Part shown: piece after piece, positions 8,165-60,850 of the stretch
How the letters are laid out: each line of letters starts with the position of its first letter
How positions within the stretch are numbered: position 1 is the first letter of the stretch
From: Apostichopus japonicus
Lineage: Eukaryota > Echinodermata > Holothuroidea > Aspidochirotida > Stichopodidae
Length of the DNA: 64,000 nt
Assembly: GCF_037975245.1 (NCBI RefSeq)
Contig: NC_092582.1
Span: 24,652,077 to 24,716,076, forward strand
Direction: 5' to 3'
Made by a program: the position numbers and the translations under genes
The notes under the pieces: generated by a model
The model's database searches: none
Seen by the model: only the letters and a program-made list of their open reading frames with translations
What the model was told of the DNA's origin: nothing

Positions 8165-9518
8165 GCTTATTGTAGAATTGGAATTAAATGGTAATATGCA
8201 GTATTTTTTTTAATTTTATTTTCCTGGTATGTAACAAAGTCTTCGTTACTTGCGTAAATGAAGAGAAAGGTTTGTACACCTACTCGTGTGTCCCTGGTCA
8301 GGTATTGCTGGTGACCTGCTCTCAGCCTCCACGTAATCATCGGTGCAGGGTATAACATCCTTCATTGGTCCAATTGTATATAATGATACAATTCATCCAG
8401 ACCCATATTCATTTCCATATTCATTCCAGACCCATATCTCCACCTCCCTACCAACACCCCCCCCCCCTCACCCTTTCCCGACTAACACTTTACTACTCAG
8501 AACAATACATAAACGCTCATAATTCTGTTAATATTTCTAACTTTTTCCTAAGCAGACATGTTTTTAATGCTTTTGTGATAATCTGTACATATGGTATCCA
8601 CATACACTCGGTAACTAGGAGTGCATGATTACACTTTACTGTGGTTTCTGTATTCCTCCTTTTACTACATTCGGATTTAAACTGTGACGTATCGATTACG
8701 TAATGTCTTAAATTTAACAAGAGTCGAAGGCTTCATGAACCTGTAGCCACCAACCTGGCGGTGGTGATGGCGCGCGTGTATGTGTGCGTCTGTGACATTT
8801 GCTTGAGTCCGCGATGACTCAACAACGGGGTGATGCATATTTGTCATACTTGCTATGTAGTTGTATTATTGTCGGATTTTAGCCAAACTAGGTATACAGT
8901 TGCTGGTTAATATCTGGGCCCCCAAAAAATCCGCAACCAGTTTTGAGCTGGTGGGACCAGATTTTATTTCCAACTAAAATGAATTTTGGGGCAACTTCTT
9001 GGGCCCGAATTTTGGGGCCCAATATTTTTGGACCATCTGAGCCCACATTTTCTCTCCATTGCAATAACACCGCAACCGTAAGTCGGGTTGTAGCAAAACT
9101 TGGTAAACAGTTGTTGTTTAGTAGCTGGTACATGTAGACATAAATATTATGATAATGAGTGATGACGTACAACACTTTAATATTCCACTTACCAAGGAAC
9201 CATAGTGACCGTTGGGCTCTTGTTAATATTTTATCGGCTTCATTTACCCTACGTTGTTATTTTAGTCCTAAGTAAAGCCATATCTTTTTAAGATAATACA
9301 ATCACGTGAGCTTACATAATTTAACAAGATTGAATATGATAATTTATACTGCTAATGTTCTGTATATTAAGTAAACACTAAATACAATGGTATGCTCTCT
9401 GTGTTTCACTTTTCATTTTATTATTTCCTTAAAGTGTTTAATTGACTGCATCTTTTAAAGTTTCTACTTGTTTGTGAGACTAAAGGAGAATCAAACTTAA
9501 CAATCATTTTACAATTAT
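8165..9518. other. No gene seen; weak internal repeat
   Basis: No convincing exon was found on either strand. Two diverged copies of a segment ('ggtatacagttgctgg' near 8891 and 'ggtaaacagttgttg' near 9101) lie about 210 bp apart. Between them are several gaattttggg/gggccc blocks, suggesting an old repeat remnant. Confidence 0.5.
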
Positions 9519-12500
9519 ATGATAGGTAAGTTATCGATCATTGATATATTATGTTATAGGTAAGCTATCGATCATTTTAATATTATGTGATAGGCAAGCT
9601 ATCGATCATTTTAATATTACATGATAGGTTAGCTATCGATCATTTTAATATTACATGATAGGTAAGCTATCGATCATATTTAATATTACATGATAGGTAA
9701 GCTATCGATCATTTTAATATTACATGATAGGTAAGCCATCGATCATATTTAATATAACGTGATAGGTACGCTATCGATCCTTGCAATATTATGTGATAGG
9801 TAAGTTATTGGTCATTGATATATTATGTGATTTTATCGATCATGTTAATATTATGTGATAGGTATGCTATCGATCATATTTAATATTACATGATAGGTAA
9901 GCTATCGATCATTTTAATATTACATGATAGGTAAGCCATCGATCATATTTAATATAACGTGATAGGTACGCTATCGATCCTTGCAATATTATGTGATAGG
10001 TAAGTTATTGGTCATTGATATATTATGTGATAGTTAAGTTATCGATCATGTTAATAGTATGTGATAGGTAAGCTATCGATCATTTTAATATTACATGATA
10101 GGTAAGCTATCGATCATTTTAATATTACATGATAGGTAAGCTATCGATCATATTTAATATTACATGATAGGTAAGCTATCGATCATTTTAATATTACATG
10201 ATAGGTAAGCCATCGATCATATTTAATATAACGTGATAGGTACGCTATCGATCCTTGCAATATTATGTGATAGGTAAGTTATTGATCATTGATATATTAT
10301 GTGATAGTTAAGTTATCGATCATGTTAATATTATGTGATAGGTATGCTATCGATCATATTTAATATTACATGATAGGTAAGCTATCGATCATTTTAATAT
10401 TACATGATAGGTAAGCTATCGATCATTTTAATATTATGTGATAGGCAAGCTATCGATCATTTTAATATTACATGATAGGTTAGCTATCGATCATTTTAAT
10501 ATTACATGATAGGTAAGCTATCGATCATTTTAATATTACATGATAGGTAAGCTATCGATCATATTTAATATTACATGATAGGTAAGCTATCGATCATTTT
10601 AATATTACATGATAGGTAAGCCATCGATCATATTTAATATAACGTGATAGGTACGCTATCGATCCTTGCAATATTTTGTGATAGGTAAGTTATTGATCAT
10701 TGATATATTATGTGATAGTTAAGTTATCGATCATGTTAATATTGTGTGATAGGTATGCTATCGATCATATTTAATATTACATGATAGGTAAGCTATCGAT
10801 CATTTTAATATTACATGATAGGTAAGCTATCGATCATTTTAATATTATGTGATAGGCAAGCTATCGATCATTTTAATATTACATGATAGGTTAGCTATCG
10901 ATCATTTTAATATTACATGATAGGTAAGCTATCGATCATTTTAATATTACATGATAGGTAAGCTATCGATCATATTTAATATTACATGATAGGTAAGCTA
11001 TCGATCATATTTAATATTACGAGATAGGTAAGCTATCGATCCTTGCAATATTATGTGATAGGTAAGTTATTGATCATTGATATATTATATGATAGGTAAG
11101 CTATCGATCATATTTAATATTACATGATAGGTAAGCTATCGATCAAATGTAATATTACATGATAGGTAAGCTATCGATCAAATGTAATATTACATGATTG
11201 GTAAGCTATCGATCATATTTAATATTACGTGATAGGTAAGCTATCGATCATATTTAATATTACATGATAGGTAAGCTATCGATCAAATGTAATATTACAT
11301 GATAGGTAAGCTATCGATCATATTTAATATTACGTGATAGGTAAGCTATCGATCCTTGCAATATTATGTGATAGGTAAGTTATTGATCATTGATATATTA
11401 TGTGATAGTTAAGTTATCGATCATGTTAATATTATGTGATAGGTAAGCTATCGATCATTGTAATATTATGTGATAGGTAAGTTGTCGATCATATTTAATA
11501 TTACGAGATAGGTAAGCTATCGATCATTTTAATATTACATGATAGGTAAGATATCGATCATTTTAATATTACATGATAGGTAAGCTATCGATCATATTTA
11601 ATATTATGTGATAGGTAAGCTATCGATCATTGTAATATTATGTGATAGGTAAGCTATCGATCATTTTAATATTATGTGATAGGTAAGCTATTGATCATTT
11701 TAATATTACATGATAGGTAAGCTATCGATCATTTTAATAGGTTAGCTATCGATCATGTTAATATTACATGATAGGTAAGCTATCGATCATTTTAATATTG
11801 CATGATATAAGCTATCGATCATATTTAATATTACTTGATAGGTAAGCTATCGATCATTGTAATACTAGGTAAGTTATCGATCATTTTAATATTACATGAT
11901 AGGTAAGCTATCGATCATATTTAATAATATGTGATGGGTAAGCTATTGATCATTTTAATATTCAATCATTGTAATTATTCATTATTCGATCATTGTAATA
12001 TTGTGTGATAGGAAAGTTGTCAATCATTGATATATTATATGATATGCAAGCTATCGATCATATTTAATATTACATGATATGCAAGCTATCGATCATATTT
12101 AATATTACATGATAGGTAAGCTATCGATCATATTTAATATTACATGATAGGTAAGCTATCGATCATATTTAATATTACATGATAGGTAAGCTATCGATCA
12201 TATTTAATATTACATGATAGGTAAGCTATCGATCATATTTAATATTACATGATAGGTAAGCTATCGATTATTTTAATATTACATGATATGCAAGCTATCG
12301 ATCATATTTAATATTACATGATAGGTAAGCTATCGATCATATTTAGTATTACATGATAGGTAAGCTATCGATTATTTTAATATTACATGATATAAGCTAT
12401 CGATCATATTTAATAACGTGATAGGTACGCTATCGATCCTTGCAATATTATGTGATAGGTAAGTTATTGATCATTGTAATATTATGTGATAGGTAAGCTA

Positions 12501-13508
12501 TCGGTCATATTTAATATTACATGATAGGTAAGCTATCGATCATATTTAATATTACATGATAGGTAAGCTATCGATCATATTTAATATTACGAGATAGGTA
12601 AGCTATCGATCATTGCAATATTATGTGATAGGTAAGTTATTGATCATTGATATATTATGTGATAGTTAAGTTATCGATCATGTTAATATTATGTGATGCT
12701 ATCGATCATTGTAATATTATGTGATAGGTAAGTTGTCGATCATTGTAATATTATGTGATGGGTAAGCTATCGATCATATTTAATATTACATGATAGGTAA
12801 GTTATCGATCATTAATATTACATGATAGGTAAGATATCGATCATTTTAATTTTACATGATAGTAAGCTATCGATCATATTTAATATTATGTGATAGGTAA
12901 GCTATCGATCATTGTAATATTATGTGATAGGTAAGCTATCGATGTTAATATTATGTGATAGGTAAGCTATCGATCATTTTAATATTATGTGATAGGTAAA
13001 CTATTGATCATTGTAATATTATGTGATAGGTAAGCTATTGATCCTTTTAATATTACATGATAGGTAAGCTATCGATCATTTTAATAGGTTAGCTATCGAT
13101 CATGTTAATATTACATGATAGGTTAGCTATCGATCATTGTAATACTAGGTAAGTTATCGATCATTTTAATATTACATGATAGGTAAGCTATCGATCATAT
13201 TTAATAATATGTGATAGGTAAGCTATCGATCATTTTAATATTCAATCATTGTAATTATTCATTATTCGATCATTGTAATATTGTGTGATAGGAAAGTTGT
13301 CAATCATTGATATATTATGTGATAGGTAAGTTATCGATCATTTTAATATTACATGATAGGTAAGCTATCGATCATATTTAATATTACATGATAGGTAAGC
13401 TATCGATCATATTTAATATTATGTGATAGGTAAGCTATCGATCATATTTAATAATATGTGATAGGTAAGCTATCGATCATTTTAATATTATATGATAGGT
13501 AAGCTATG
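9519..13508. repeat. Satellite array, ~34-bp unit with ATCGAT core
   Basis: About 118 head-to-tail units, each built as gataggtaagctatcgatca followed by an AT-rich spacer (ttttaatattacat or tatttaatattacat). Each unit contains GATAG-gtaag-CTATC, a 5-bp stem with a 5-base loop, and a palindromic ATCGAT. Variants such as 'gatccttgcaatatt' and 'gttattgatcattgatat' recur together (near 9775, 9975, 10250, 10660, 11040 and 11350), so a higher-order repeat is present. The right third is more degraded, with truncated units. There are no stable reading frames. Confidence 0.97.
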
Positions 13509-20580: not shown

Positions 20581-22785
20581 TTATTTTATTTCCTCGCTAA
20601 TAACTTTTAATTTCTTGATTGTCTTCGACCAAATGGCTTTATTGGAAGATGTCCTCCGATTAAATTTCAAGTTCCGACCTGGAACAGAGCGGGGCTTCTC
20701 CTTACAATTGCCAGTGACCTTCCGCCATTTTGTTCTATAATGGAAGAAACCGATGAAGATCGTTAATCATGTTAATATAGGTTGACTCAAATCACGCAGA
20801 CCCAGGCGAGGCATTACATATAACAGGAACATATTCTGTTCTCCTGTCACATAATTTGTCACAGTCATGCAGTAATTTCTGTAAGGCTTGGAAGATTCAA
20901 CGATGTACTCACAAAACTAACGCAAAAACCAGCAACACTTTACTTTCATTGGCAGGAGCGCTACTAAGTAGAGTTCTGAGGGGCTTTAGCAGTTTAGCCC
21001 CCCCCCCTCCCTCCCTCCCTCTCTCTTTCTTTCCACTGGCAAACAGAATATTCAAAAGCAATCCTAGTGTAAACAATATTTTAAAAAGGTATGCGGTACA
21101 ATTTAAAAAGTCGAAACATCTTCAACGTTGTTTCAATAGTTGCAAAATATTGCACCAGTTTCCCTCCTTTTCACCCCCCCCCCCCCAAAAAAGAAAGAAA
21201 CTGGTACTTTTTCTCTTAAAATTCGTGCAAATGTCGTTGGCAAAGTTATTATCTCCACAGAGCGATGTCCGATATGGTATACCAAATCGGACATAGCATT
21301 GTTTGCCCCGTGTGGAAGCCACTAAATACTAACCCGTGTAGCGGTTCGGTTCATCGGTAAGGATCCCGAGCGAGAATGATCTCACCTGACGTCACAGTCT
21401 TGCATAACTACGTAGATGCACATGTTGTACATTTCACGTGCATAGTGCGGGTACGAGCTCGTGTAACACGTACGATTAAGTAAAAGAGGGGAAAATAGGA
21501 GACAAATATCCAAATATCCAAACGTTTCACGGTTTATTCTTGACATTTTAAGTTAACAAATGTATATAAGAAAGCTGCAACTGTTGTATTTATCTTTATA
21601 TCTCAAGTAGCAGGCCTCACAAGTTGTTACATAGAGTCAACTAACCTCCAAGACCTGGTTGTGTACATATATCATTTTAAAAACTTCAAGTACCGTTTCA
21701 AATCGCTATTACATCTATCTTTATCTCGTAGCAGGCCTCACAAGTTGGTACATAGAGTCAACTAACCTCCTAGACCTGGTTGTGTACAAATATCAAATTT
21801 AAAAGCTGCAAAATTCACTTCAAACGTTTAGATCTATAGTCATTTCAAATAACAGGTCTCACAAGTTATTACATAGAGTCAACTAACCTCCAAGACCTGA
21901 TTATTTACAAATATCATTTAAAAACTGCAAGTACCGTTTCAACTACCGCTATTATATCTATCTTAATCTCGTAGCAGGCCTCATAAGTTATTACATAGAG
22001 TCAACTAACCTCCAAGACCTGGTTGTGTACATATATCATTTTAAATACTGCAAGTACCGTTTAAAACCGCTATTATATCTATCTCTATCTCGAGTAGCAG
22101 GTCTCACAAGTTATTACATAGAGTCAACTAACTTCCGAGACCTGGGCAAAATAACGTAATTCGGGAACCGAGAGCGCCGAGCACAGTTGCACCCGAAACC
22201 GAGTTCCGAGAGCACTCGAAATGGTCCGACCCGCTGTAGGGGTTAGTATTTAGTGGCTTCCTTTGCCGTGTATGGGGGTGTGTGTATGTTTGTGTAAAAG
22301 TGGTGGCGCTAGATCGAAGTACCTTTTCTTAAATCCTTGCTTATGTACAAATGATTTACGCATACGAACCTTGCAAATTGTATGTGAGGGCCGCAGATGC
22401 TTTTTAAGGGTAACTGTAAAGTATATATACTGACCCCACCTGACTCATTCTGGTTTCCAGCTAATTACCTTATTAATCAACGCAATGTGTTTCGGCTTAT
22501 CTTCCAGAGTACAAAAAGGAAAACAGAGCAAGAAACAAAGACCAACCTTCTGTTTTGAAACCATGTTTTGACTTGAGCCTCTTCAAGACCTAGTCTAGTT
22601 GCTAGCACACACCTCTCATGAAGACCCAGGTATTTCTTGGCACTGAAAGTTCTTTCTAAACCTGACGAAAAGTAGTATCAAATATATGTTATGCAATGAC
22701 ATGCTCCAATTTGTTTATAATTTTAGAGGTAATTTCTCATTACTATTGTTACTAAATACCATATCTGATGCCATAGATGTATGTA

Positions 22786-22877
<92 letters not shown>

Positions 22878-24724
22878 AGACCAAACTACTGTCTAAGATC
22901 ATGTCCTGCATGAGGAACGCTCAAGGAAACTGAGCAGTGACGACTGTGTTTCATCAGGTGGGTTATAGACATTGGGAATGGTTGCGAGCCACCTGAGTGT
23001 TATATACTGGGTGTGAAAATGGCCACGAGCACCTTACCGGCATAACAAAAAATAATATCATAGCTTGTAAAGGTATACGTGGAAGGACTAAAACTCACTT
23101 GTCAATTGTTCCCCTTGAAATATGGCGCGCTTACGTCTTGGTAAGAGATGACCAGTGGGAAGTGTCCCTGGTAAAGGAGTGGAGCCACGAATCAAAGAGG
23201 ACGGAAATGTAAGACAATTACACCATCTTGAAGGATGAACTGGATTACATACATATTCACGATCAGATAAAATACGTCTTGAATCAAATGAAGTAGTTTT
23301 TCGGTGATCTTCATTTAAAGTCCAAGAGTTGTTTTGCCATCCTAATGCAGACACGAACGAAAGTAAAACTACCTGTGTGCATAGGTATTGTAAAGGTAGA
23401 GGGAGGTTACTATTTATGAAAATGCAACCCCCCTATACCCACTTTGATTCTTTAAGAGAACCGTCCTACAATGTTATAAAAACGTGTGTATTCAATATGT
23501 ATTTAACAAGCCTGTTGCGTTGCATATAACCCCCCTCTTGATTGAAACGTCAGGCCCTACTTTTATACATGAATCAAATGTTCCAAGGTATATGTAACGT
23601 TAAGCTGTGTTACATATATTAACTCAATCATATTTATTGAATGATGGATATTAGTTCATCACCGATATAAATTATGTAAAATTAACATGAATAAATCAAA
23701 TGATAATACAAAAAGTACATTAATATTTGAAGAAAATTTGATTTTTCACTGTTGTTTTACTTCCTGATCAGTAATTACAGCAAACAGTAAGCAGTGAGGT
23801 TATTAATCATAACCTTTGTCTGATCAAGTAGGCAATGTTCGTATGACTACGAGGTCTAATTTAATTAAGTGTTTGTCTTTGTATTTTGTGTTTATGTATA
23901 GGCATTTGACGTAGCTCTGCGGTGAAATCCGCCATTCTCTAAAGAAATATTCTTAGTCTATTTATATAAAATTAAAAACTCAAATTGCGCGAGCAACGTT
24001 CTAGACTTTGCTTTTAATTTCAGCAGTGAAACCCGCCTTTACATGTACAAAGTAATTAGTTTTTTATGTTCCAGCGTTTCAAAACTTAAAGGAGAAGCAC
24101 CGTCTGGCGGCTGGCTGTGCGGCGGTTTCATCTGGCCCATAGGCATATGTATATAGCGTAAGCTAACATGTTTAACAACTCCCAACAATCCTTGCACCAC
24201 GTGGAATGTACCTGGATTAAAAAGTGCCCAAATAGCTGCTAATTATCTACTTCTTTTGGTATTGCTTTTGTAGGCTTAGTTCAAGCTTATTGCACAAAGT
24301 ATTGACACGGGAACTAATGTGGATATTAGGGCATGATAAACACTTCAATATATCATCTCCAGTACTGGAAACATCAAGGGTATCTTGTTGTTCTATACAT
24401 GTATATATAGATCAATCATTCTACTTCTATATATTTGCAAAGGACCATTACACTTGTGATATTTTCTTATATTGGAATACAAATTTTGGAATGTTTCTTC
24501 ATAACATAGACCACTGATGGTCGATAACTATTGCTTCTCATCTGAGATACAACCGACAAGTAAGCGGTAAGCAGAAAACCTTTGTATTAATTCAAAATCC
24601 TTACCTGTGTTACTGTTTGAATAAAAATCATCGGTGCATTTATTGTTCGAGTGGCTCTTGTCTTGTGAACTGGTGTCGATTCCAAAATATCACGAATAAA
24701 AAACGACTTTCCTCTCGTTGACAT
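20581..24724 (-). CDS. Homeobox transcription factor, NKL-type, four exons
   Basis: Predicted DNA-binding transcription factor of about 220 residues, assembled from four exons with matching phases: exon 1 24724-24605, exon 2 23372-23099, exon 3 22661-22547, exon 4 20734-20581. Exon 1 starts [23 protein letters not shown] is an eh1-like motif, which in known families recruits Groucho/TLE corepressors. The homeodomain (about residues 118-177) runs from [14 protein letters not shown] in exon 2, through [12 protein letters not shown] and QVKTWFQNR in exon 3, to TKWRK in exon 4. F8, L16, F20, W48, F49, N51 and R53 are all present, with K46, T47, Q50 and T54. Two introns cut the homeobox, after codon 14 (phase 1) and within codon 53 (phase 2). 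The Thr47 and the eh1 motif point to the NKL group (TLX, HHEX, BARHL and VENT relatives), but I cannot assign an orthologue. Exon 3 and 4 junctions are the firmest; the exon 1-2 junction is less certain. Confidence 0.85.
21314..22261. mobile_element. TIR element inside the last homeobox intron
   Basis: The two ends are perfect inverted copies of 22 bp, GGAAGCCACTAAATACTAAC plus CC, with further imperfect pairing inward (TGTAGCGGTTCGG against TACAGCGGGTCGG). The flanks are TTTGCCCCGTGT on the left and TTTGCCGTGT on the right, a likely target duplication of about 10 bp with a 2-bp indel. Long duplications and an interior made of tandem repeats recall Foldback or MULE-type elements, which is an inference. 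There is no coding capacity. It lies in intron 3 (20735-22546) of the homeobox gene. Confidence 0.82.
21590..22145. repeat. Minisatellite of ~122 bp, five copies
   Basis: The block 'ttacatagagtcaactaac' recurs five times, near 21627, 21750, 21870, 21992 and 22115. It is preceded by gcaggcctcacaagtt and followed by 'agacctggttgtgtac' and a tail with 'gcaagtaccgtttcaa'. Copies differ by a few substitutions. It makes up most of the interior of the 21314-22261 TIR element. Confidence 0.92.
22795..22875. repeat. (TA)n microsatellite in a homeobox intron
   Basis: About 40 uninterrupted TA units, in intron 2 (22662-23098) of the minus-strand homeobox gene, between the two exons that split the homeodomain. 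Open frames across it are artefacts. Confidence 0.97.
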
Positions 24725-29217: not shown

Positions 29218-30267
29218 TTTGTGAAATATTCAACGTCTTCCCCTAATTTGCTAGTACAATACAATTTTATTTTAAGTGTATGTGATCCAGTTGTCTTTCT
29301 CTGGTAATTCTTCTCTAAGCAGTAGACAATATTCCATTTTTAGAATTAAGAGAATCGATTTTCCTTTATTTACCAAACTCCTCCATATGGTTCCCATTAC
29401 TATACCCTCAACTGTGTATATAAACGATGACGTTTATCATAACTGTCAGGAATTAGGAATGTCATAATTAGGAAAAGTGCACCATACGCTCAAGAGTAAT
29501 AAATTATGCCATCAAAACTAATCTTTCTATTGTTTTCAAAATTCAACGTTATAGCGTAATAGATTTCTACTATTTGTTAATTACTAACTTATTTCGTTAA
29601 AGGCACATATGATATTCTACCATTACAATTTACCATATATATATGCATGGTTAAAATAATCTGTTGATAAAGAGAAAACTGCTCCAATTCTTGTGTTCCT
29701 GTTATTTTATACTAACTATGTTTCTTATACTTTGGCATTCCCTGTTATGAGGTTACAGCCAAACTTGTATCACACAAGGTTTAATAAAGAGACATTAATG
29801 TGTTAATATGTTTTCACTATTGAGATGTTAAACTTGATAATCGATATTGTCCTGATGTTTTGTACATAAACACAACCAATACGGAGGAGGGGGGGGGGGG
29901 GGGTTCTTTCAAGGTCACATGGACAACTGAACATCTTAATGACATTCAACAATATTTGTCCTTGATAAGTTTGCAATACATGTAATACCCAACTTTGTAA
30001 AACTGATCTGTTTTTCTTCAAAAGTTAAAAATGGTATAAACAACATTTTGCCTACATTTTGTCTACAACCGTATAATTTTTTTTTTTTTACCTTCAATCA
30101 TGCGTTTGACATTAGCAATACAAACTCTACTCATATGGTTCACCGATAAACATCCGGTTGAATAAAATTGATAAAAACAGAAGAAAAATGTATTAGTCTG
30201 TCTTGAATATATCTTTTCTATAGTTAACCCAAATTAATTTTTGGTTCAAATATATCATTGTTGAGAC
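29218..30267. other. Region 5' of the minus-strand MIF-like gene
   Basis: No coding exon was recognised. The AT-rich sequence directly upstream of the start at 29217 probably contains the promoter, but no distinct element can be named. A poly-G run (29886-29902) and a poly-T run (30077-30090) are present. Confidence 0.4.
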
Positions 30268-32560
<2,293 letters not shown>

Positions 32561-42606: not shown

Positions 42607-44301
42607 GTGTATATATTGGTTGATACAACTGTTTTGTCAGTGTTGTAGGCCACATATATTCATGGATATATATGTTATGTTAGTGTTGGAGGCCACAGAT
42701 ATTCATACATACATCTATTGTGTTAGTCTTGCAGGCCACATATATTCATAGATACAGCTGTTATGTTGGTGTTGTAGGCTACAGACATTCATAGATACAG
42801 CTGTTACGTTAAATATATTCATAGATAGGGATCTACATCTATGATATGTTAGTATTGTAGGCCACATATATTCATAGATACATCTATTATATTGGTGTTG
42901 TTGGCCACTTATTTTAATAGATATATCTATAATGTTAGGGTTGCATGCCACATATATTCATAGATACAGCTGTTATGTTAGTATTGTAGGCCACATATAT
43001 TCATAGATACATATATTATGTTAGTATTGAAGGCCAAAGATATTCATAGATACATCTATTATGTTATTGTTGCAGGCCACATTTATTCATAGATACATAT
43101 GTTATGTTAGTGTTGCAGGCCACATATATTCATAGATACAGCTGTCATATTGGTGTTGTAGGCCACCGACATTTATAGATATAGCTGGTGTGTTGAACAT
43201 ATTCATAGATAGGGATCTACATCTATTATATGTTAGTATTGTTGGCCACATATATTCATAGATACATCTATGATATTAGTGCTATAGGCCACTTATTTTA
43301 ATAGACATATCTATAATGTTAGGGTTGCATGCAACATATATTCATAGATACATCTATTATATTAGTGCTATAGGCCACATATATTCATAGATACATCTAT
43401 TATGTTAGTGTTGCAGGCCACATATATTCATAGATACATATGTTATGTTAGTGTTGCAGGCCACATATATTCATAGATACAGCTGTCATGTTGGTGTTGT
43501 AGGCCACCGACATTTATAGATATAGCTGGTGTGTTAAACATATTCATAGATAGGGATCTACATTTATTATATGTTAGTATTGTTGGCCACATATATTCAT
43601 AGATACATCTATGATATTAGTGCTATAGGCCACTTATTTTAATAGACATATCTATAATGTTAGGGTTGCATGCAACATATATTCATAGATACAGCTGTTT
43701 TGTTAGTGTTGTAGGCCACATATATTCATAGATACAGCTGTTTGTTAGTGTTGTAGGCCACATATATTCATAGATACAGCTGATATATTGGTGTTGTAGG
43801 CCACATATATTCATAGATACATATATTATATTAGTGTTGGAGGCCACAGATATTCATAGATACAGCTGTTATGTTAATATATTCATAGATAGGGATCTAC
43901 ATCTATTATATGTTAGTATTGTTGGCCACATATATTCATAGATACATCTATTATATTGGTGTTGTAGGCCACTTATATTCATAGATACAGCTGATATATT
44001 GGTGTTGTAGGCTACATATATTCATAGATACATATGTTATGTTAGTGTTGGAGGCCACAGATATTCATAGATACATCTATTATGTTAGTCTTGCAGGCCA
44101 CATATATCCATAGATACAGCTGTTATGTTGGTGTTGTAGGCCACAGACATTCATAGATACAGCTGTTATGTTAATATATTCATAGATAGGGATCTACATC
44201 TATCATATGTTAGTATTGTTGGCCACATATATCATAGATACATCTATTATGTTAGTGTTGTAGGCCACTTATTTTAATAGATATATCTATAATGTTAGGG
44301 T
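42607..44301. repeat. 43-bp satellite, subfamily A
   Basis: About 39 units of the form ggccacatatattcatagat followed by acatctattatgttagtgttgta. Variants such as 'gatagggatctacatctat' recur about every 350 bp (42825, 43203, 43545, 43885 and 44185), showing higher-order organisation. It borders subfamily B directly. Confidence 0.95.
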
Positions 44302-47300
44302 ATTTGTAAGTATTCTAAGCCACAGATATTCATAGATTAATCTTATTCTTATATCTAAGCCACAGATATTCATAGTTTAATTCTATTCGTTAGTATTCTA
44401 AGCCAGAGATATACATAGATTAATCCTATTCTTTCGTATTCTAAGCCTTATATATTCATAGATTACTCCTTTTCATAAATATTCTAAGCCACAGATATTC
44501 ATAGTTTAATTCTATTCGTAAGTATCCAAAGCCATAGATATAGAAAGATTTATCCTTTCGTTAGTATTCTAAGCCACAGATATTCATAGTTTAATCCAAT
44601 CTAAGCCACAAATATTCATAGATTAACCCTATTCGTAAGTATTCTAAGCCACAAATTTTTATAGTTTAATCCTATTCATAAGAATCCTAAGCCACATTTA
44701 TTCATAGAATAATCCTATTAGTAAGTATTCTAAGCCAGAGATATGTATAGACTAATCCTATTTGTTAGTATTCTAAGACACAGATATTCATAGTTTAATC
44801 CCAAGCCACAAATATACATAGCTTAATCCTATCCGTAAGTATTCTAAGTCACAGATATTCATAGTTTAATCTTATTCTTAAGTATTCTAAGCCACAAATA
44901 TTCATAGATAACCCTATTCGTCATTATTCTAAGCCACAAAAATTGATAGTTTAATCCTATTCATAAGTATTCTAAGCCACATATATCCATAGCCTGATCC
45001 TATTCGTCAGTATTCTAAGCCACAGATATTCATAAGTTATTCCTAATACTCTAAGCCACAAACATTCATTGACTTACCCTATTCGTTAGTATTCTAGCCC
45101 ACAAATATTCACAGTTTAATCTAATTCTTAAGTATTCAAAGCCATAGATATTCATCGATTACTACTATTTAAGTATTCAAAGCCACAGAATTACATAGAT
45201 TTATCATATTCGTTAGTATACTAAGCCACCAATATTTGTGGTTTAATCCTATTCGTAAGAATTCTATGCCACAGATATTCATAGATTTATCATATTTGTA
45301 AGAATTCTAAGCCCGAGATATGTATAGATTAATCCTTTTCGTTAGTATTCTAAGCCACAGATACTCATAGTTTAAAACTATTCGTAAATATACTAAGACA
45401 CAGATATTCAAAGTAAAAAATTATTCGTAAGTATTCTAAGACACATATATTCATAGTTTAATCCTAAGCCACATATATCCATAGCTTAATCCTATTCGTA
45501 ATTATTTTCAGCCACAGACATTCATAGATTAATCCAAATCGTAAGAAGCCTTAGCCACACATATGCATAGATAGACCCTATTTGTTAGTATTCTAAGCAA
45601 CAAATATTCATAGTTTAATCCTAAGCCATAGATATCCATAGCTTAATCCTTTTCGTAAGTATTTTCAGCCACAGACATTCATAGATTAATCCTAATCATA
45701 AGTAACGTAAGCCACAATTATGCATAGATAAACCCTATTTGTTAGTATTCTAAGCCATAAATATTCATAGTTGAATTTGATTCGTAAGTATTCTAAGCCA
45801 CAGATATTCAAAGATTAATCCTATTCTTTAGTATTCTAAGACACATATATTCCTATTTCAATCCTAAGCCACAGATATCCATAGCTTAATCCTTTTCGTA
45901 AGTATTTTCAGCAACAGATATTCATAGATTAATCCTAATCTTAAGTAACCTTAGCCACAATATGCATATATAAACCCTATTTGTTAGTATTCTAAGCCAC
46001 AAATATTCATATTTAATTCGATTTGTATGTATTCTAAGCCACAGATATTCATAGATTACTCCTTTTCATAATTACTCTCAGCCACAGGTATTCATATTCT
46101 ATTCGTAATTATTTAAAGCCATAGATATTCATAGAATTATCTTATTCATTCATATTCAAAGCCAGAGATGTACATAGATTAATCCTATTCGTTAGTATTC
46201 TAAGCCACAGATATTCATAGTTCAATACTATTTGTAAGTAATCTAAGCCACAGATATTCATAGTTTAGTCCAATCTAAGCCACAAATATTCATAGATTAA
46301 CCCTATTCGTAAGTATTGTAAGCCACAAATATTTATAGTTTTATCCTATTCATAAGGATTCTAAGCCACAGATATTCATAGAATAATCCTATTATTAAGT
46401 ATTCAAAGACAGAGATATACATAGTTTAATCCTATTCATAAGAATTCTAAGCCACAGATATTCAAAGTTTATCTTATTCTTAAGCACTCGAAGCTACACA
46501 TATCCATAGATTAATCCTATTCGTAAGTATTCCGAGCCACATATATTCATAGTTTAATACTGTTTGTCATAAATATTCAAAGCCAAAGATATACATAGAT
46601 TAATCCTATTCGTTAGTATTCTTAGCCACATATATTCATAGTTTATGACTATTTGTTAGTTATCTAAGCCACAAATGTTCATAGTTTAATCCTATTCATA
46701 AGAATTCTAAGCAACAAATATTCATAGTTTAAACCTATTCTTAAGTATTCTAAGACACAGATATTCATAGCTTAAGTCTAACCATAGGTATTCTAAGACA
46801 CAGATATTCTTAGAATAATCCTATTCATAAATATTCAAAGCCAAATATATACATAGATTAATCCTATTTGTTACTATTCTTAGCCACATATATCCATAGA
46901 TTAATTCTACTCGTTAGAAGTCTGAGCCACAGATATTCATAGTTCAATACTATTTGTCAGTAATCTAAGCCACAAATATTCATAGTTTATTCTTATTCTT
47001 AAGTATTCAAAGCCACATATATTCATAGATTACTCCTTTCATAAGTATTTTAAGCCACAGATATTCTTAGAATTATCCTATTCATAAATATTCAAAGCCA
47101 AAGATATACAGAGATTAATCCCATTCGTTAGTATTCTAAGCCACAAATATTCATAGTTTAATCTCATTCTCAAGTATCCTAAGCCACATATATCTATAGC
47201 TTGATCCTATTCGTCAGTATTCTAAGCCACAGATATCATAGTTCAATCCTATTCATAAGAGTTTTAAGCAACAGATATTCATAGCTTAAGTCTATTCATA

Positions 47301-48340
47301 ATTATTCTAAGCCACAGATATTCTTAGAATTATCCTATTCATAAATATTCAAAGCCAAAGATATACAAAGAATTATTCTATTCGTTAGTATTCCAATGCC
47401 ACAGATATTCATAGTTTAATACTATTTGTAAGTAATCTAAGCCACAAATATTCATAGTTGAATCTTATTTACAATTATTCTTAGCCACAAATATTCATAG
47501 ATTACTCCTTTTTATAAGTAGTCTAAGCCACAGATATTCTTAAAAATTATCCTATTCATAAATATTCAAAGCCAAGGATATACATAGATTAATCCTATTC
47601 GTTAGTATTATAAGCCACAGATATTCATAGTTTAATACTTTTTGTAAGTAATCTAAGCCACAAATATTCATAGTTTATTATTATTCTTTAGTATTCTAAG
47701 CCACATATACCGGTATTCATAGATCACTCCTTTTCATAAGTATCTTAAGCCACAGATATCCTTAGAATTATCCTATTCATAAATATTCAAAGTCAAAGAT
47801 ATACATTGATTAATCCCATTCGTCAGTATTCTAAGCCACAGATATCCATAGATTAATCCTATTCGTTAGTATTCTAAGCCACAGATATTCATAGTTCAAT
47901 AATATTTGTCAGTAATCTAAGATACAAATATTCATAGTTTAATCTTATTCTCAAGTATCCTAAACCACAGATATCCATAGATTAATTCCACTCGTTAGTA
48001 GTCTGAGCCACAGATATTCATAGTTTAATACTATTTGTAAGTAATGTAAGTCACAAATGTTCATAGTTTAATGTTATTCTTTAGTATTCTAAGCTACATA
48101 TATTCATAGATCACTCCTTTTCATAAGTATCTTAAGCCACAGATATTCTTAGAATTATCCTATTCATAAATATTCAAAGTCAAAGATATACATAGATTAA
48201 TCCTATACGTGAGTATTCTAAGCAACATATATTCATATTTTAAACCTATTCGTAAGTATTCTAAGCCAAAGATATTCATAGCTAAATACTATTCATAAGT
48301 ATTCCAATCCACATATAACCATAGATTTATACTATTCATA
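44302..48340. repeat. 43-bp satellite, subfamily B
   Basis: About 94 units of the form aagccacagatattcatag followed by attaatcctattcgtaagtattct. It shares GCCACA-ATATTCATAG and the 43-bp period with subfamily A and differs in the linker, so both derive from one ancestral unit. Units here are more diverged from one another, with frequent deletions. Confidence 0.95.
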
Positions 48341-51300
48341 TGATTGTCTGTGTGTCTGGTTATCTACTAGCCTTGTTTTCTGTGTGTCTGGTTGTCTTCG
48401 TGTCTGGTTGTCTGTGGGTCTGGTTATCTGTTTTTCTGCGTGTCTGGTTGTCTGCGTGTATGGCTGTCTGCGTGTCTGATTGTCTGCCTGTCTGGTTGTC
48501 TGCGTGTCTGGTTGTCTGATTGTCTGCGTGTCTGGTTGTCTGCGTGTCTGGTTGTCTGCGTGTCTGGTTGTCTGCGTGTCTGGTTGCGTGTTTGTCTGCG
48601 TGTCTGGTTGTCTCTGTGTCTGGTTGTCTGCGTGTTTGATTGTCTGCGTGCCTGGTTGTCTGGAGTCTGTGTGCCTGGTTGTCTTCGTGTCTGGTTGTCT
48701 GTGTGTCTGGTTGTCTGCGTGTCTGACAGTATTCGTGTCTAGTTGTCTGCGTGTCTGCGTGTCTGGATGTCTGTGTTTCTGATTGTCTGTGTGTCTGATT
48801 GTCTGCGTGTATACGTGTCTTGTTGCCTGCGTGTCTTGTCTGCGTATCTGCTTGTCTGATTATATGCGTGTCTGATTGTCTGCGTGTCTGATTATCTGTG
48901 TGTCTGATTATCTGCGTGTTTGATTGTCAGCGGGTTTGATTGTCTGCTTGTCAGCTTGCGTGTCTCATTGTGTGATTGTCTGCGTGTCTGATTGTCTGCG
49001 TTTCTGGTTGTCTGCGTGTTTGGGTGTCTGTGTGTAACATTGTCTGCGTGTCGTATTGTTTGCGTGTCTTGTTGTCTACGTGTCTGAATGTCTGCATTTC
49101 TGATTGTTGCCGTGTCTGATTTTCGGCGTGTCTTTTTGTCTGCTTGTCTGATTGTCTACGTGTTTAAATGTTTGCGTGTCTGATTGTCTTCGTGTCTTAT
49201 TTTCTGATTGTTTGCGTGTCTGATTGTCTGTTTGTCTGCGTCGCTGGTTGTCTGCGTTTCAGGTTGTCTGCATGTTTGGTTGTCTGCGTGTCTTATTGTC
49301 TGCGTGTCTTATTGATTACGTGTCTTGTTGTCTGTGTGTCTGATTGTCTGTGTGTCTGATTGTCTGCGTGTCTGATTGTCTGCGTGTCTTATTGTCTACG
49401 TGTTTTGTTGTCTGTGTGTCTCATTGTCTGCTTGTCTGATTGTGTGCGTGTTTGATTATCTGCGTGTCTGATTTTCTGCGTGTCTGATTTTTTATTGTCT
49501 GCTTATCAGCTTGTCTAATTGTCTTATTGTCTGCTTGTCTGATTCTCTGATTGTCAGTGTGTTCGATTGTCTGGTTGTCTGCGTGTCTGCTTGTCTGATT
49601 GTGTGCGAATCTGATTTTCTGCTTGTCTGATAATCTGCGTGTTTGATTGTGTGCGTGTCTGATTTTTTATTGTCTGCATATCAGCTTGACTGATTGTCTT
49701 ATTCTCTGCTTGTCAGAGTATTTGATTGTCTGGTTGTCTGGCCGTCTGGTTGTTTGCGTGTCTGGTTGTCTGCGTGTCTGGGTGTCTGCGTGTCTGGTTG
49801 TCTGCCTGTCTGATTATATTCGTGCCAGGTTGTCTGCGTGTCTGGTTGTATGATTGTCTGTTTGTCTGCGTGTCTGTTTGTCCGCTTGTCTGGTTGTCTG
49901 ATTCTCTGGTTGTGTGATTGTTCGATTGTCTGCATGTTTGGTTGTCTGTGTGTCTTATTGTCTGCGCGTTTTATTGATTGCGTGTCTTGTTGTCAACGTG
50001 TCTGAATGTTTGCATTTCTGATTGTCGCCGTGTCTCATTGTCGACGTGTCTTATTGTGTGTGTCTGATTGTATGCTTGTCTGATGGTCTACGTGTCTGAA
50101 TGTCTGCGTGTCTGATTGTCTACGTGTCTTATTGTCTGTGTGTCTGATTGTCTGCGTGTCCTGTTGTTTGCGTGTTTTGTTGTCTGTTTGTCTACTTGTA
50201 TGATTGTGTGCGTGTCTGATCTGGTATCTGGTTATCTGCGTGTTTGATTGTCTGCGTGTCTGATTTTTGATTGTCTGCTTATTAGCTTGTCTGATTGTCT
50301 TATTGTCTGCTTGTCTGATTCTCTGATTGTCGGCGTGTTTGATTGTCTGGTTGTCTGTTTGTTTGCGTGTCTGGTTGTCTGTTAGTCTTGTTATCTGATT
50401 GTCTGGTTTCTGTAGCCTGCTTTTCTGCGGGTCGGTTGTCTGCGTGTCTCTAATTGTCTGCGTGTCTGATTGTATGCGTGTCTGATGGTCTGTGTGTCTG
50501 ATTGTCTGCGTGTCTGATTATCTGTTTGTCTGCGTGTCTGGTTGTCTGCGTGTCTGGTTGTCTGATTGTCTGTTTGTCTGCGTGTCTGGTTGTCTGCGTG
50601 TCTGATTGAGTTCGTGTCTTATTGTCTGCGTGTCTGATTGTCTGTATGTTTGATTGTCTGCGCTTCTGATTTTCTGCCAGTCTGTTTGTCTGCGTGTCTG
50701 GTTGTCTGATTGTCTGCGTCTCGAATGGTCTGCGTGTCTGATTATCTGCATATATGACTGTATGCCTGTCTGATTGTCTGCGTGTCTGGTTGTTTGTTTG
50801 TGTGCGTTTCTGATTGTGTGCGTGCGTCATTGTCTTCGTGTCTGATTGTCTGCGTGTATGGTTGTCTGATTGTCTGCATATATGTTTGTATGCCTGTCTG
50901 GTTGTCTGCGTGTTTCATTGTCTGAGTATGTGCGTGTCTGATTGTGTGTGTGTCTGATTGTCTGCGTGTCTGATTGTCTGCGTGTGTCAGATTGTATGCG
51001 TGTCTGGTTGTCTGGTTTTCTGATTGTCTGGCTGTCTGATTGCCTACATATATGATTGTCTGATTGTCTGCGTGTCTCGTTGTCTGCATGTCTGATTGTG
51101 TTCGTGTCTGATTGTCTGCGTCTCGGATGGTCTGCGTGTCTGCTTGTCTGCATGTCTGCTTGTCAGCTTGTCAGCTTGTCAGCTTGACTGCGTGTCTTGT
51201 TTGATTGACTGCATGCCTGATGTTCTGATTGTCTGCATATCCGATTGTCTGCGTGCCATTATTGTCTGCGTGTCTGATTGTCTGCGTGTGTGGTTGTCTG

Positions 51301-54300
51301 CGTGTTTGGTTGTTTGCGTGTTTGTTTGTCAGCGTTTTTGGTTGTCTACGTGTCTGGTTGTATGCGTTTCTAATTGTCTGCGTGTCTGGTTGTCTGATTG
51401 TCAGCGCTTCTGGATGCCTGCGTGTCTGACTGTCTGCATATATGATTGTGTGCCTGTCTGATTGTATGCGTGTTGGTTGTTTGATTGTGTGCGTTTCTGA
51501 TTGTGTGCGTGCCTAATTGTCTGCGTGTTTGATTGTCTGCGTGTCTGGTTGTCTGATTATCTGGCTGTCTGCGTGTCTGATTGTCTGCGTGTCTGATTGT
51601 CTGGTTGTCCGATTGTCTGTATGTCTGCGTCTACGATTGTCTGGTTTTCTGCGTGTCTGATTGTCTGCGTGTCTGGTTGTCTGATTGTCTTGTTGTCTGC
51701 GTGTCTGATTGTCTGGTTGTCTGCGTGTCTGGTTATCTGCGTGTCTGATTGTCTGGTTGTCCGATTGTCTGTATGTCTGCGTCTACGATTGTCTGGTTTT
51801 GTGCGTGTCTGATTGTCTGCCTGTCTGGTTGTGTGATTGTCTGGTTGTCTGCGTGTCTGGTTGTCTGGGTGTCTGGTTGTCTGACTGTCTGCGTTTCTGA
51901 TTGTGTGCATGCCTCATTGTCTGCGTGTCTGATTGTCTGCGTGTCTGATTGTCTGACTGTCTGCGTGTCTGATTGTTTGGTTGTCAGATTGTCTGTGTGT
52001 CTGCGAGTCTGCTTGTCTGCTTGTCTGATTGTCTGCCTGTCTGATTGTCTGCGTGTGTCATTGTCTGATTGTCTGCTTGTCTGCTTGTCTGATTGTCTGC
52101 GTGTCTGGTTGTCTGTTTGTCTGGTTGTCTGTTTGTCTGTGTGCCTGTTTTTCTGCTTGTCTGGTTGTCTGATTCTCTGGTTGTGTGATTGTTTGATTGT
52201 CTGCGTGTTTAGTTTTCTGCGTGTCTGATTGTCTGCGTGTCTGATTGTCTGCGTGTCTGATTGTCTGCGTGTCTGATTGTCTTCGTGTCTGATTGTGTTC
52301 GTGTATGATTGTCTGCGTGTCGGATGGTCTGCGTTTCTGATTGTATGTGAGTCTTATTGTCTGCGTTTCTGGTTGTCTGCATGTCTGCTTGACTGCAAGT
52401 CTGCTTGTCAGCTGTACTGCGTAACTGATTGTCGGCGTGTCTGATTGTTTGATTGTCTGCATGACTGATGTTCTGATTGTCTGCGTGTCTGATTGTCTTC
52501 GTGTCTGATTGTCTGATTGTCAGCGCTTCTGGATGCCTGCGTGTCTGACTGTCTGCATATATGATTGTATGCCTGTCTGATTGTATGCGTGTTGGTTGTT
52601 TGATTGTGTGCGTTTCTGATTGTGTGCGTGCCTAATTGTCTGCGTGTTTGATTGTCTGCGTGTCTGGTTGTCCGATTGTCTGTATGTCTGCGTCTACGAT
52701 TGTCTGGTTTTCTGCGTGTCTGATTGTCTGCGTGTCTGGTTGTCTGATTGTCTTGTTGTCTGCGTGTCTGATTGTCTGGTTGTCTGCGTGTCTGGTTATC
52801 TGCGTGTCTGATTGTCTGGTTGTTCGATTGTCTGTATGTCTGCGTCTACGATTGTCTGGTTTTGTGCGTGTCTGATTGTCTGCCTGTCTGGTTGTGTGAT
52901 TGTCTTGTTGTCTGCGTGTCTGATTGTCTGGTTATCTGCGTGTCTGGTTGTCTGGGTGTCTGGTTGTCTGACTGTCTGCGTTTCTGATTGTGTGCGTGCC
53001 TCATTGTCTGCGTGTCTGATTGTCTGCGTGTCTGATTGTCTGACTGTCTGCGTGTCTGATTGTCTGGTTGTCAGATTGTCTGTGTGTCTGCGTGTCTGAT
53101 TGTCTGCATATACGATTGTCTGCCTGTCTGATTGTCTGCATGTGTCATTGTCTGATTGTCTGGTTGTCTGCTTGTCTGGTTGTCTGCGTGTCTGGTTGTC
53201 TGTTTGTCTGGTTGTCTGTTTGTCTGTGTGTCTGTTTTTCTGCTTGTCTGGTTGTCTGATTCTCTGGTTGTGTGATTGTTTGATTGTCTGCGTGTTTAGT
53301 TTTCTGCGTGTCTGATTGTCTGCGTGTCTGATTGTCTGCGTGTCTGAATGTCTGCGTGTCTGATTGTCTTCGTGTCTGATTATTTGCGTGTCTGATTGTC
53401 TGCGTGTCTCGTTGTCTGCGTGTCTGATTGTGTTCGTGTATGATTGTCTGCGTGTCGGATGGTCTGCGTTTCTGATTGTCTGTGAGTCTTATTGTCTGCG
53501 TTTCTGGTTGTCTGCATGTCTGCTTGACTGCAAGTCTGCTTGTCAGCTTTACTGCGTAACTGATTGTCGGCGTGTCTGATTGTTTGATTGTCTGCATGTC
53601 TGATGTTCTGATTGTCTGCGTGTCTGATTGTCTTCGTGTCTGATTGTCTGATTATCTGTGTGTCTGATTGTCTGCGTATCGGGTTGTCTGCATGTCTGCG
53701 TGTCTGATTGTCAGCGTGTCTGGTTTTCTGCGTGTCTGGTTGTTTGATTGTGTGCGTTTCTGATTGTGTGCGTGCCTCATTGTCTGCGTGTCTAATTTTC
53801 TGCGTGTCTGGTTGTCTGATTGTCTGGCTGTCTGCGTGTCTGGTTGTCTGCATATACGATTGTCTGTCTGTCTGATTGTCTGCGTGTGTCATTGTCTTGT
53901 TGTCTGCATGTCTGGTTGTCTGGTTGTCTGTGTGTCTGGTTGTCTTTGTGTCTGGTTGTCTGCGTTCTGGTTGTCTGTCTGTCTGTTTGTCTGTGTGTCT
54001 GTTTTTCTGCTTGTCTGGTTGTGTGATTCCATGGTTGTGTGATTGTCTGATTGTCTGCGTGTTTGGTTTTCTGCGTGTCTGATTGTCTGCATGTCTGATT
54101 GTCTGTGTGTCTGATTGTATGGTTTTCTGCGTGTCTGATTGTCTGCATGTCTGGTTGTTTGAATATATGATTGTCTGACTGTCTTATCGTCTGCATGTCT
54201 GATTGTCTGATTGTCTGGTTGTCTGCGTGTCTGGTTGTCTGCGTGTCTGGTTGTCTGCGTGTATGGTTGTATTCGTGTCTGGTTGTATTCGTGTCTGGTT

Positions 54301-54599
54301 GTCTGCGTGTCTGGTTGTATGATTGTCAGTTTGTCTGTGTGTCTGTTTTTCTGCTTGTCTGATTCTCTGGTTTTGTGATTGTTTGATTGTCTGCGTGTCT
54401 GGTTTTCTGCGTGTCTGATTATCTGCGTGTCTGATTGTCTGCGTGTCTGATTATCTGCGTGTCTGATTGTCTGCGTGTCTGGTTGTCAGTGTCTGTTTGT
54501 CTGCGTGTCTGGTTGAGTGATTGTCTGTTTGTCTGCGTGTCTGGGTGTCTGGTTTTCTGCGTGTCTGATTGTCTGCGTGTCTTATTGTCTGCGTTTCTA
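48341..54599. repeat. TGTCTGNN octamer satellite, left block
   Basis: About 780 head-to-tail octamers of the form TGTCTGNN, where NN is mostly CG, AT, GG or GT, often paired into 16-mers such as tgtctgcgtgtctggt. The unit lacks stop codons in most frames. The plus strand gives Cys/Leu/Val/Ser-rich open frames and the minus strand Gln/Thr/Arg/Asn-rich ones; none is a gene. Larger duplications are visible: 51597-51812 recurs at 52660-52875 and the 52462 region at 53597 (offsets 1063 and 1135 bp). Confidence 0.97.
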
Positions 54600-55980: not shown

Positions 55981-56529
55981 TTATAAAAAATAATAGTGGG
56001 TGGGGGATTTCCAGGGGTTATTCCAAGGAATATTATTAATACGCTGCGATGGTGTACACTCTGCCTTTAGAAAGCACAACCTTGACTCGGCAGAAATGGC
56101 ATTGTAAAATATTTCCCTGAGCCACCCAGACTCTAAATAGCTGAAGACTTTACCATCTTTATAGTCCGTCATCAGTCTTTGCTTCAGTTCAATGTTATCA
56201 ATACTGGTAAAATAATGCGCAATATCAATGTACATGCAAGGCGGCCATTTTTTCATTTCAATTTCGCCTTCCCATGCAAGTGGTAAATCCGAAAGAGGAT
56301 CGGGCATGGTCTTTCCTTCAACCTGAAGTACCGATGCGTAGTCATCTGCCTTTTCATTTCGCGCATCTGCTTTATTAACTTCAGCAATGTTCATCTGAAC
56401 GGCAGCATACGCTAAAGCAACCAACTCTTCTTTCCGGCCATTCATCTTTAACTTTCGTTTCTTTAAAAATTCCTTCAGTCTGTCAACTTTCCAAAGTTTA
56501 AACTCTTCCAAACTTGTAGGAATATCCAT
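55981..56529 (-). pseudogene. Truncated SAP-domain protein of a transposon (YqaJ/SWIM type)
   Basis: A continuous frame of 182 codons from a good ATG at 56529. Residues 6-43 form a SAP domain, a DNA-binding helix-loop-helix (LEEFKLWKVDRLKEFLKKRK, then GRKEELVALAY). Further on, WPPCMYIDIAHYF, SGWLREIFYNAIS and CFLKAECTPSQRINN are typical of the region before a SWIM zinc finger and YqaJ-like nuclease domain in transposon-linked invertebrate proteins. That assignment is from memory of the family. Soon after NNIP the match ends and a stop follows, so the SWIM and nuclease domains are missing. The gene is close to the right TIR (about 170 bp), as expected for an element-encoded gene. Confidence 0.65.
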
Positions 56530-56704
56530 CGCAAAGCGAAAAAACAGAGTAAATTTAGACGTAAATTATGCGATTTCTAATGTTTACTGTAAGTGCTCAT
56601 TAAGTTAACGTGGGTACGCGAGCATACAACTCTCGTCGCAACGAGAGTATTCTTATTTGACCTCTTGACCTCCATTGCGCAATGCAAACTCTGAACTCGC
56701 TTAT

Positions 56705-59658: not shown

Positions 59659-60850
59659 AGATATATATGCAATAGCATGCCCGAATCTTTTTCAAATTTT
59701 GCCCGACAATTCCATGATTTTCTTTATTTACCATCATGATGCCCGAATATTTCCGTGTAACACCACCGTAAGCGCAGCTCATCTGGGCTACCACGCTTTT
59801 TGCACGATCAATTTTTTTCTAACTAGTCAACTGTATACCTGGACATCCCCGACATGAGTGCATATAAGAAACATTTTCTTTTATATGGATGCAAGGGGGG
59901 GGGGGGCTGCCTACAAGCCTAGAAGTACAGGTTTATCATATTCTTTGTTATATTTTATACTTTTTTGTGAGACAAATTGCAGTCTCACCCGACACAGCGA
60001 CATTAGCCCGCCTACGTGTCGTTGAACAATGTTTGTTTTCTGGAGGTAGCTGAGTACTGTGTTAAAATAATAAATACGGTAACTAAATAGGAGCTTAAAA
60101 ATATACTGTCCTATTTTTCCCCTTCAAAGTGATGTTACCATTTTTTTCTTCTAATTTACCAAATTTTTGGGAAAGTGTAAATTTCTAAAACGTGAGATTA
60201 TAAAACAAAAAATGTTTAGATGCAACTTGCAAGGCCTCAAAAGTGCCGTTTCCGGCAATCTGAGAGGCATCTTATGCCAAAAATTTTCTTGTACGCTACG
60301 CGCCAACCGATGGTGGCGCTCCGCTTAGATAGTGTCACGGGAACTTTCGGGCACAAATATTTCTGCACATCCCCCCCCCCCAAAACTGAAATGGTCCCTT
60401 ACGCCTATGGTTGTAACAAATGATCATCGCACCACTGGACAAACCTTGCAATCGCGGTGGCGTTTGAGTCAATGTCACCTGACAGGTAACCAGTAATGAC
60501 ATTATCATCCGCATATTTGATGACGCTACAATCACTGGCGGCATATTCTGACAGTCGCTGGTATACAGGGAAAAAAGCCAGAGGGAGAGGACACCGCCCT
60601 GAGGCGCACCTACACTTAAAGTCATTTCCCCTGAGTAGACATCGCCTACCTTCACCCTCTGAGGTCTATTTCTAAGGAAATCATGAATCCATAGGGTAAT
60701 TTGGGGGGGGGGGGGGGACATCGTATGCCACTAGAAAAGTCTATAAAAGTAGATCTCGCATACTGCCTATCTTTATCTAAATGAGAGTAAATTATGTGAA
60801 GATATGTCAACACCGATCACCATCTTTGTATGTATACTTGAATACTCCAT
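58765..60850 (-). mobile_element. Decayed CR1/Rex1-like retrotransposon, split by a hAT element
   Basis: The minus strand carries reverse transcriptase parts in order. HLDKDRQYARSTFIDFSSG lies near 60750-60800. ITLWIHDFLRNRPQRVKVG and SVGAPQGGVLS lie near 60600-60700. SDCSVIKYADDN, with the catalytic YADD, is near 60510-60540 in another frame. Then come QWCDDHLLQ, a break at the hAT insertion, LNVSKTKELIINFRRKPITH at about 59440-59500, and an end portion ARYRYSFVPNSINIFN near 58930-59000. Frameshifts and a deletion before the WIHDFL block show it is dead. The 3' end on the minus strand has short TTCAAAT-type repeats (58770-58800), a tail like those of related elements. It is the same family type as the 32011-32560 fragment. 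Confidence 0.85.
59511..60409. mobile_element. hAT-type element, family 2, copy b, in the retrotransposon
   Basis: The ends are CATAGGCGTACGAGG and, inverted, CATAGGCGTAAGGGA. The flanking octamers GTTGTGAC (59503-59510) and GTTGTAAC (60410-60417) differ by one base. The interior shares 'gcccgaat' blocks and G/C runs with copy a and contains a (TA)n run near 59622. It interrupts the reverse transcriptase between QWCDDHLLQ and LNVSKTKE, so it inserted after the retrotransposon. Confidence 0.9.

Follow-up and report, generated by a model that had tools for sequence, protein, structure and literature searches.

The window analysed here, a stretch of 64,000 nucleotides from Apostichopus japonicus (C22:24652077-24716076), contains a real homeobox on its minus strand, together with an upstream exon read from the same strand. 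Exon 1 (24605..24724, 120 nt, donor CAG|GTAAGG) carries the start codon and an eh1-type motif, SFFIRDIL. In the model conserved among the copies described below, exon 2 (23099..23341, 243 nt, minus strand) encodes the linker, homeodomain residues 1-14 and the first base of codon 15; its acceptor is GCATTAG|GA in the window copy and TTCATTAG|G in the other copies, and its donor is CAA|GTGAGT. Exon 3 (22547..22661, 115 nt, minus strand; acceptor CGTCAG|GT and donor AAG|GTTGGT in the window copy) begins with the last two bases of codon 15 and ends with the first two of codon 53, and exon 4 (20581..20734, minus strand, acceptor ATTATAG|AA) supplies the last base of codon 53, homeodomain residues 54-60, a basic C-terminal tail and the TAA stop. 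Two introns lie inside the homeobox, one in codon 15 (phase 1) and one in codon 53 (phase 2). Once exons 2-4 are joined at their GT/AG borders, the product matches the Pfam homeodomain PF00046 over profile positions 1-57 of 57 with 75.2 bits (E 3.4e-21; curated cut-off 22.9 bits), a score too high for a chance match, and W48, F49, N51 and R53 are all present, as they are in a member of PF00046. The homeobox exons of the initial annotation (exon 2 ending at 23099, 22661-22547 and 20734-20581, minus strand) and its placing of two introns in the homeobox are borne out by this score and by splice sites that are kept across copies. Intron 3 measures 1812 nt in the window copy, compared with 1029 and 1040 nt in two other copies (A and E below), and contains an interspersed repeat with a 121-bp tandem unit (21310..22264), which matches stretches on many other contigs at 76-95%, partly as tandem blocks; none was listed inside the other four copies.

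The homeobox is not alone on its contig. Profile and protein searches covered 671,581,487 bases in 35 contigs of A. japonicus. Of the 93 matches listed for the homeodomain profile, five have their first profile position at 13 or 14 and their last at 52, as expected where the two introns cut the homeobox. All five are on the minus strand of C22 between 23.75 and 24.86 Mb, within 1.1 Mb, and are named here by the position of exon 1: A (23.757 Mb), B (24.032), C (24.519), D (the window copy) and E (24.855). The protein search gave 40 matches, 14 of which are exons of these five copies, the next being an NK1-type gene on C5 with 56 bits. When exon 1 was included in the query, a sixth locus was found on the plus strand at 25.625 Mb (C22:25625044-25625163), an exon-1-only fragment that agrees with copy C at about 96% in an alignment of 903 bases, ceases to resemble it in intron 1 and has a one-base loss of its own, different from that of the window copy. 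The likeness among the copies continues through the introns and beyond the genes on both sides, and they are thus segmental copies and not retrocopies.

The copies share a common plan, with an exon 1 that ends in phase 1 after 121 nt (120 nt in the window copy), an exon 2 of 243 nt (240 in B), an exon 3 of 115 nt and an exon 4. The reading frame is open from end to end in A and E (210 aa each) and in C (201 aa); B is open through exon 3, and no exon 4 turned up for it in a search of about 16 kb below exon 3. One copy in five has a shortened C-terminus. The GT/AG dinucleotides are kept in all five copies at the exon 2 donor and at both ends of exon 3, and at the exon 4 acceptor in the four copies that have this exon. 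The eh1-like peptide noticed in the initial annotation at 24724 recurs in all five (FFIRDIL, of the form FxIxxIL, residues 8-14), as does Phe49. The annotation had missed both the existence of five copies on one contig and a one-base deletion in exon 1. A search for relatives in viral contigs returned 12 stretches that fit a pattern, none of which codes for a relative. As judged from their sequences, the five copies are a genuine homeobox gene family.

The ten pairwise comparisons of the copies show where they have diverged (JC distances). Exon 2 differs by 0.012-0.051 vs 0.042-0.179 for intron 1 and is the lower in all ten pairs, while exon 3 (0.009-0.045) is below intron 2 (0.009-0.202) in nine pairs and equal to it in one (A-E). 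For exon 4 the distances, from six pairs, are 0.013-0.067. Exon 1, which carries the eh1 motif, has distances of 0.043-0.106 and is below intron 1 in only seven of the ten pairs, so that constraint is not clearly indicated for it. Summed over all five copies, the homeodomain has undergone 4 nonsynonymous (N) and 8 synonymous (S) changes, where neutrality would give a synonymous share of 0.254 (p = 0.003), the remainder of the protein 28 N and 11 S (p = 0.37, neutral-looking) and the whole coding region 32 N and 19 S (p = 0.035); the numbers are low, and the branching order of the copies is not taken into account. The homeodomain seems to be conserved while the rest of the protein drifts.

The first junction of the window copy required correction. 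The initial annotation had joined exon 1 to an acceptor at 23372, which is private to this copy and gave an exon 2 of 274 nt, whereas the acceptor common to all five copies is 23341, where the 243-nt exon starts; accordingly, its splice phases of 0, 1 and 2 become 1, 1 and 2, the phases 1 and 2 inside the homeobox being right. The common acceptor needs an exon 1 that ends in phase 1, which the 121 nt of the other four copies provide; here one base has been lost after the Glu15-Ser16 codons, so the frame is broken: with the shared splice sites the window copy encodes 48 aa and then a stop, keeping the eh1 motif and no homeodomain. The 31-nt extension of the earlier model (23342..23372, minus strand, acceptor CACACAG|GTAG) would restore the frame, since 31 is a multiple of three plus one and cancels the loss. 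Among the sequences fetched, only the window copy has the stretch of about 130 nt that contains the acceptor at 23372. None of the other four copies has an AG at its place (B and C have one a single base further on), and all four have an in-frame stop directly upstream of that position. We considered a transposon origin for the private acceptor and rejected it, 23360-23510 having no second match in the genome in a search that skips simple repeats and very common words. The case illustrates how paralogues can correct a gene model that looks perfect alone.

Two explanations of the fate of these copies have to be weighed against the one that we prefer. The window copy could be functional as originally modelled, with splicing at 23372 giving an altered linker between an intact eh1 motif and an intact homeodomain. 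The frame through the private acceptor is indeed fully open and tandem acceptors are present, and the changes proper to this copy (4 N and 4 S, with one of the N changes next to the deletion) are not the pattern of an old pseudogene. However, no copy has a stop in the exon 1 tail in the alternative frame, and the four others would likewise read through the 31 nt, which makes the open frame weak evidence. The pyrimidine tract of the shared acceptor also falls within these 31 nt; that acceptor is still present, and its tract is the richer of the two (11 vs 9 of 16). We regard a functional window copy as somewhat unlikely; unless the private upstream acceptor is used, this copy is probably disabled or decaying. 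At the scale of the whole family, it could be proposed that all copies are dying or non-functional duplicates carried along by segmental duplication, given the frameshift in one of the five, the exon 4 not found in another (16 kb searched), the truncated C-terminus, the sixth locus reduced to an exon-1 fragment with a one-base loss, and the neutral-looking changes outside the homeodomain. Against this stand three open frames, the preservation of the splice sites and homeodomain changes that are biased to synonymous, and we find it improbable.

In regards to the kinship of the family, we looked at the other homeobox genes of the genome, whose names we assume on recognition from their sequences. 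Present separately are what we take to be NK1, BARX, two BARHL (BARHL-a and BARHL-b), TLX, HMX, MSX, LBX, EN, rough, DLX and DBX, and likewise EMX, NOTO, BSX, NK6, NK7, HHEX and HLX; TLX, HHEX, BARHL and BSX, all named in the initial annotation, are thus presumably separate genes. Since these genes are present separately, the five-copy family is an addition to the gene set. A homeobox gene without a recognised family name lies at C4:17061549. At C3:27874381-27877272 four homeodomain matches fall in one open frame of 3340 aa, presumably as in ZFHX-type genes.

The description of a divergent NKL-like homeobox gene with T47 and T54 and short exons was right, and the statement that no family could be named can now be narrowed to BARHL-like by the intron position, the eh1 sequence and the contig, although it holds to the extent that homeodomain phylogeny alone is not decisive. 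The codon-53 phase-2 intron (AGAAG|GT) occurs in BARHL-a, BARHL-b, all five copies and also C4:17061549; it is absent from TLX and BARX (five loci read), and the homeobox of NK1, HMX, MSX, LBX, EN and GSX is unbroken at codon 53. As a BARHL trait, this intron is taken from the BARHL genes of the A. japonicus genome alone. An eh1 motif is found in the upstream open frame of both BARHL genes (SFFIKDIL in BARHL-a, SFLIRDIL in BARHL-b, compared with SFFIRDIL in the family), and both are on C22, at 15.3 and 15.4 Mb. The FxIxxIL form found in the copies is that described for the BARHL eh1 upstream of the homeodomain, of which the acorn worm and the roundworm are said to have only one of two (PMC8651982). 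In a PDB search the best single-domain match was BarH-like 2 with 62.5 bits, followed by GBX-1 with 61.2 (a lead of 1.3 to 2.4 bits); the nominal top row was a two-domain engrailed construct whose better domain scored 43 bits.

The homeodomain phylogeny that had been called for was run within the A. japonicus genome with the PDB BarH-like 2 added. The pointer to echinoderms in the initial annotation was right. The 28 homeodomains of the tree were copies A, C and D, BarH-like 2 and 24 others of the genome; copies B and E, the second NK1, the second EMX, CDX, Xlox, the posterior Hox and Hox-like sequences and those with a PRD, POU or other non-NKL-like appearance were left out by choice, and many of the 93 profile matches were never fetched. 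The best tree joined the family to BARHL with a weak support of 33/89.8. Ten alternative sister groups survived the AU test (p-AU 0.15-0.35), among them TLX (p-AU 0.244), which the best tree did not join to the family. Over residues 1-53 identity is highest to NK1 (30/53), BARHL-a having 29/53 and the BARHL range being 51-55%, and over residues 1-45 NOTO and NK1 are highest (23/45). Naming the family by best identity alone was rejected, since only a few residues separate NK1, NOTO, BARHL, LBX, GSX and BARX. The phase-1 intron that precedes the homeobox was also discarded as BARHL evidence: by eye, nine of 12 other homeobox loci show an acceptor no more than 150 nt away, in each case in phase 1, so that this intron supports only the corrected gene model.

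The family shares with BARHL Thr47, Thr54 (as in BarH-like 2 of the PDB), the codon-53 phase-2 intron, an eh1 of the type SF[FL]I[RK]DIL and the contig, and differs from it in Phe49, the codon-15 intron, a short protein (210 aa) and the number of copies, five. The BARHL homeodomain has Tyr49 (PMC8651982), where the family has Phe49. The NKL signature is given as [AKST][DENPS][LAST]QV at residues 41-45 (PMC2959044), and the family reads E-E-A-Q-V, fitting at four of five positions, with Glu41 departing. None of the other 88 homeodomain-profile matches listed begins at the place that corresponds to the codon-15 intron, which was thus probably gained in the five-copy family; homeobox introns at 13/14 or 14/15 are described in some ctenophore genes (PMC2959044). 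Given Phe49 in place of Tyr49, the extra codon-15 intron and the mismatch to the NKL signature at 41, we do not file the family as BARHL. TLX (HOX11) likewise has Thr47, Phe49 and Thr54, but it is a separate gene at C5:9197718 with an intron inside codon 57, which the family does not have, and none in codon 53.

It could be argued that the family descends from another NKL group, for example from the C4:17061549 gene or from a Vent-like or Not-like orphan. The codon-53 phase-2 intron shared with C4:17061549, the tree placements that were not rejected, Phe49 and the lead of NOTO and NK1 over residues 1-45 all speak for it. On the other hand, when the 6.1 kb that precede C4:17061549 were scanned for the pattern, no open frame contained an eh1 of the SFFIRDIL type, and that gene is on another contig and has an identity of 48%. 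Such a descent appears to us a tentative alternative, on the unlikely side, and descent from BARHL is most likely.

We consider it reasonably likely, all parts taken together, that this is a segmentally duplicated NKL-like family, most likely BARHL-derived, whose homeodomain and Groucho-type eh1 predict a repressor and whose window copy is probably decaying. A BARHL-type ancestor would have given rise to a small homeobox family, which segmental duplication would have spread along contig C22. From family knowledge, the homeodomain would bind a TAAT-type site through Thr47, Gln50, Asn51 and Thr54, all of which are present in the family, and the eh1 motif would recruit Groucho/TLE and bring about repression, as BARHL proteins do. 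The window copy has lost one base between the eh1 motif and the homeodomain, which would leave the 48-aa peptide if the conserved splice sites are used. BARHL2 is described as binding Groucho through its EH1, FxIxxIL being the Groucho-binding form (PMC8651982). Expression of BarH in the tube foot epidermis and in scattered cells of the radial nerve cord is described for a brittle star and, by citation in the same paper, for a sea star (PMC12126913).

The preferred reading of a BARHL-derived family can be extended by comparison with pmar1/phb. Those genes have a repressor role and are PRD-class, whereas the five-copy family has a stretch of ANTP-type sequence. Both are echinoderm homeobox genes that have multiplied, in pmar1/phb by tandem duplication (PMC11310086). 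Homeobox families expanding in one lineage have been tied to new developmental roles, as with pmar1/phb in the echinoderm larval skeleton (PMC11310086). We may be looking, doubtful as this bolder proposal is, at a Groucho-type repressor family of the sea cucumber lineage that arose from BARHL by loss of Tyr49 and gain of an intron and is still multiplying with a constant homeodomain, as in pmar1/phb, the window copy being perhaps remodelled by its new acceptor. If A, C and E are expressed, the family would offer a compact example of how a repressor selector gene diverges and multiplies, in an animal that regenerates strongly and with a damaged sister copy alongside. The 2017 A. japonicus genome paper gives 26 NKL genes (PMC5638244), and among the titles listed in our literature searches none concerned a BarH-like homeobox family in this species, which is not proof of its being unpublished.

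Elsewhere in the window, an AGAT array of about 437 copies (30264-32011, 99% match) gives rise, on the minus strand, to three long spurious frames that encode YLSI repeats, and large satellite-like arrays with units of 34, 43 and 16 bases occupy 9503-13507, 42611-48337 and 48341-54598, respectively. Reverse-transcriptase-like fragments were seen by eye at 59.3-60.7 kb, 60335-60730 being without a Pfam match. Finally, an open frame on the minus strand at 55981-56565 contains a SAP domain (Pfam, E 2.8e-6) and probably belongs to a mobile element.
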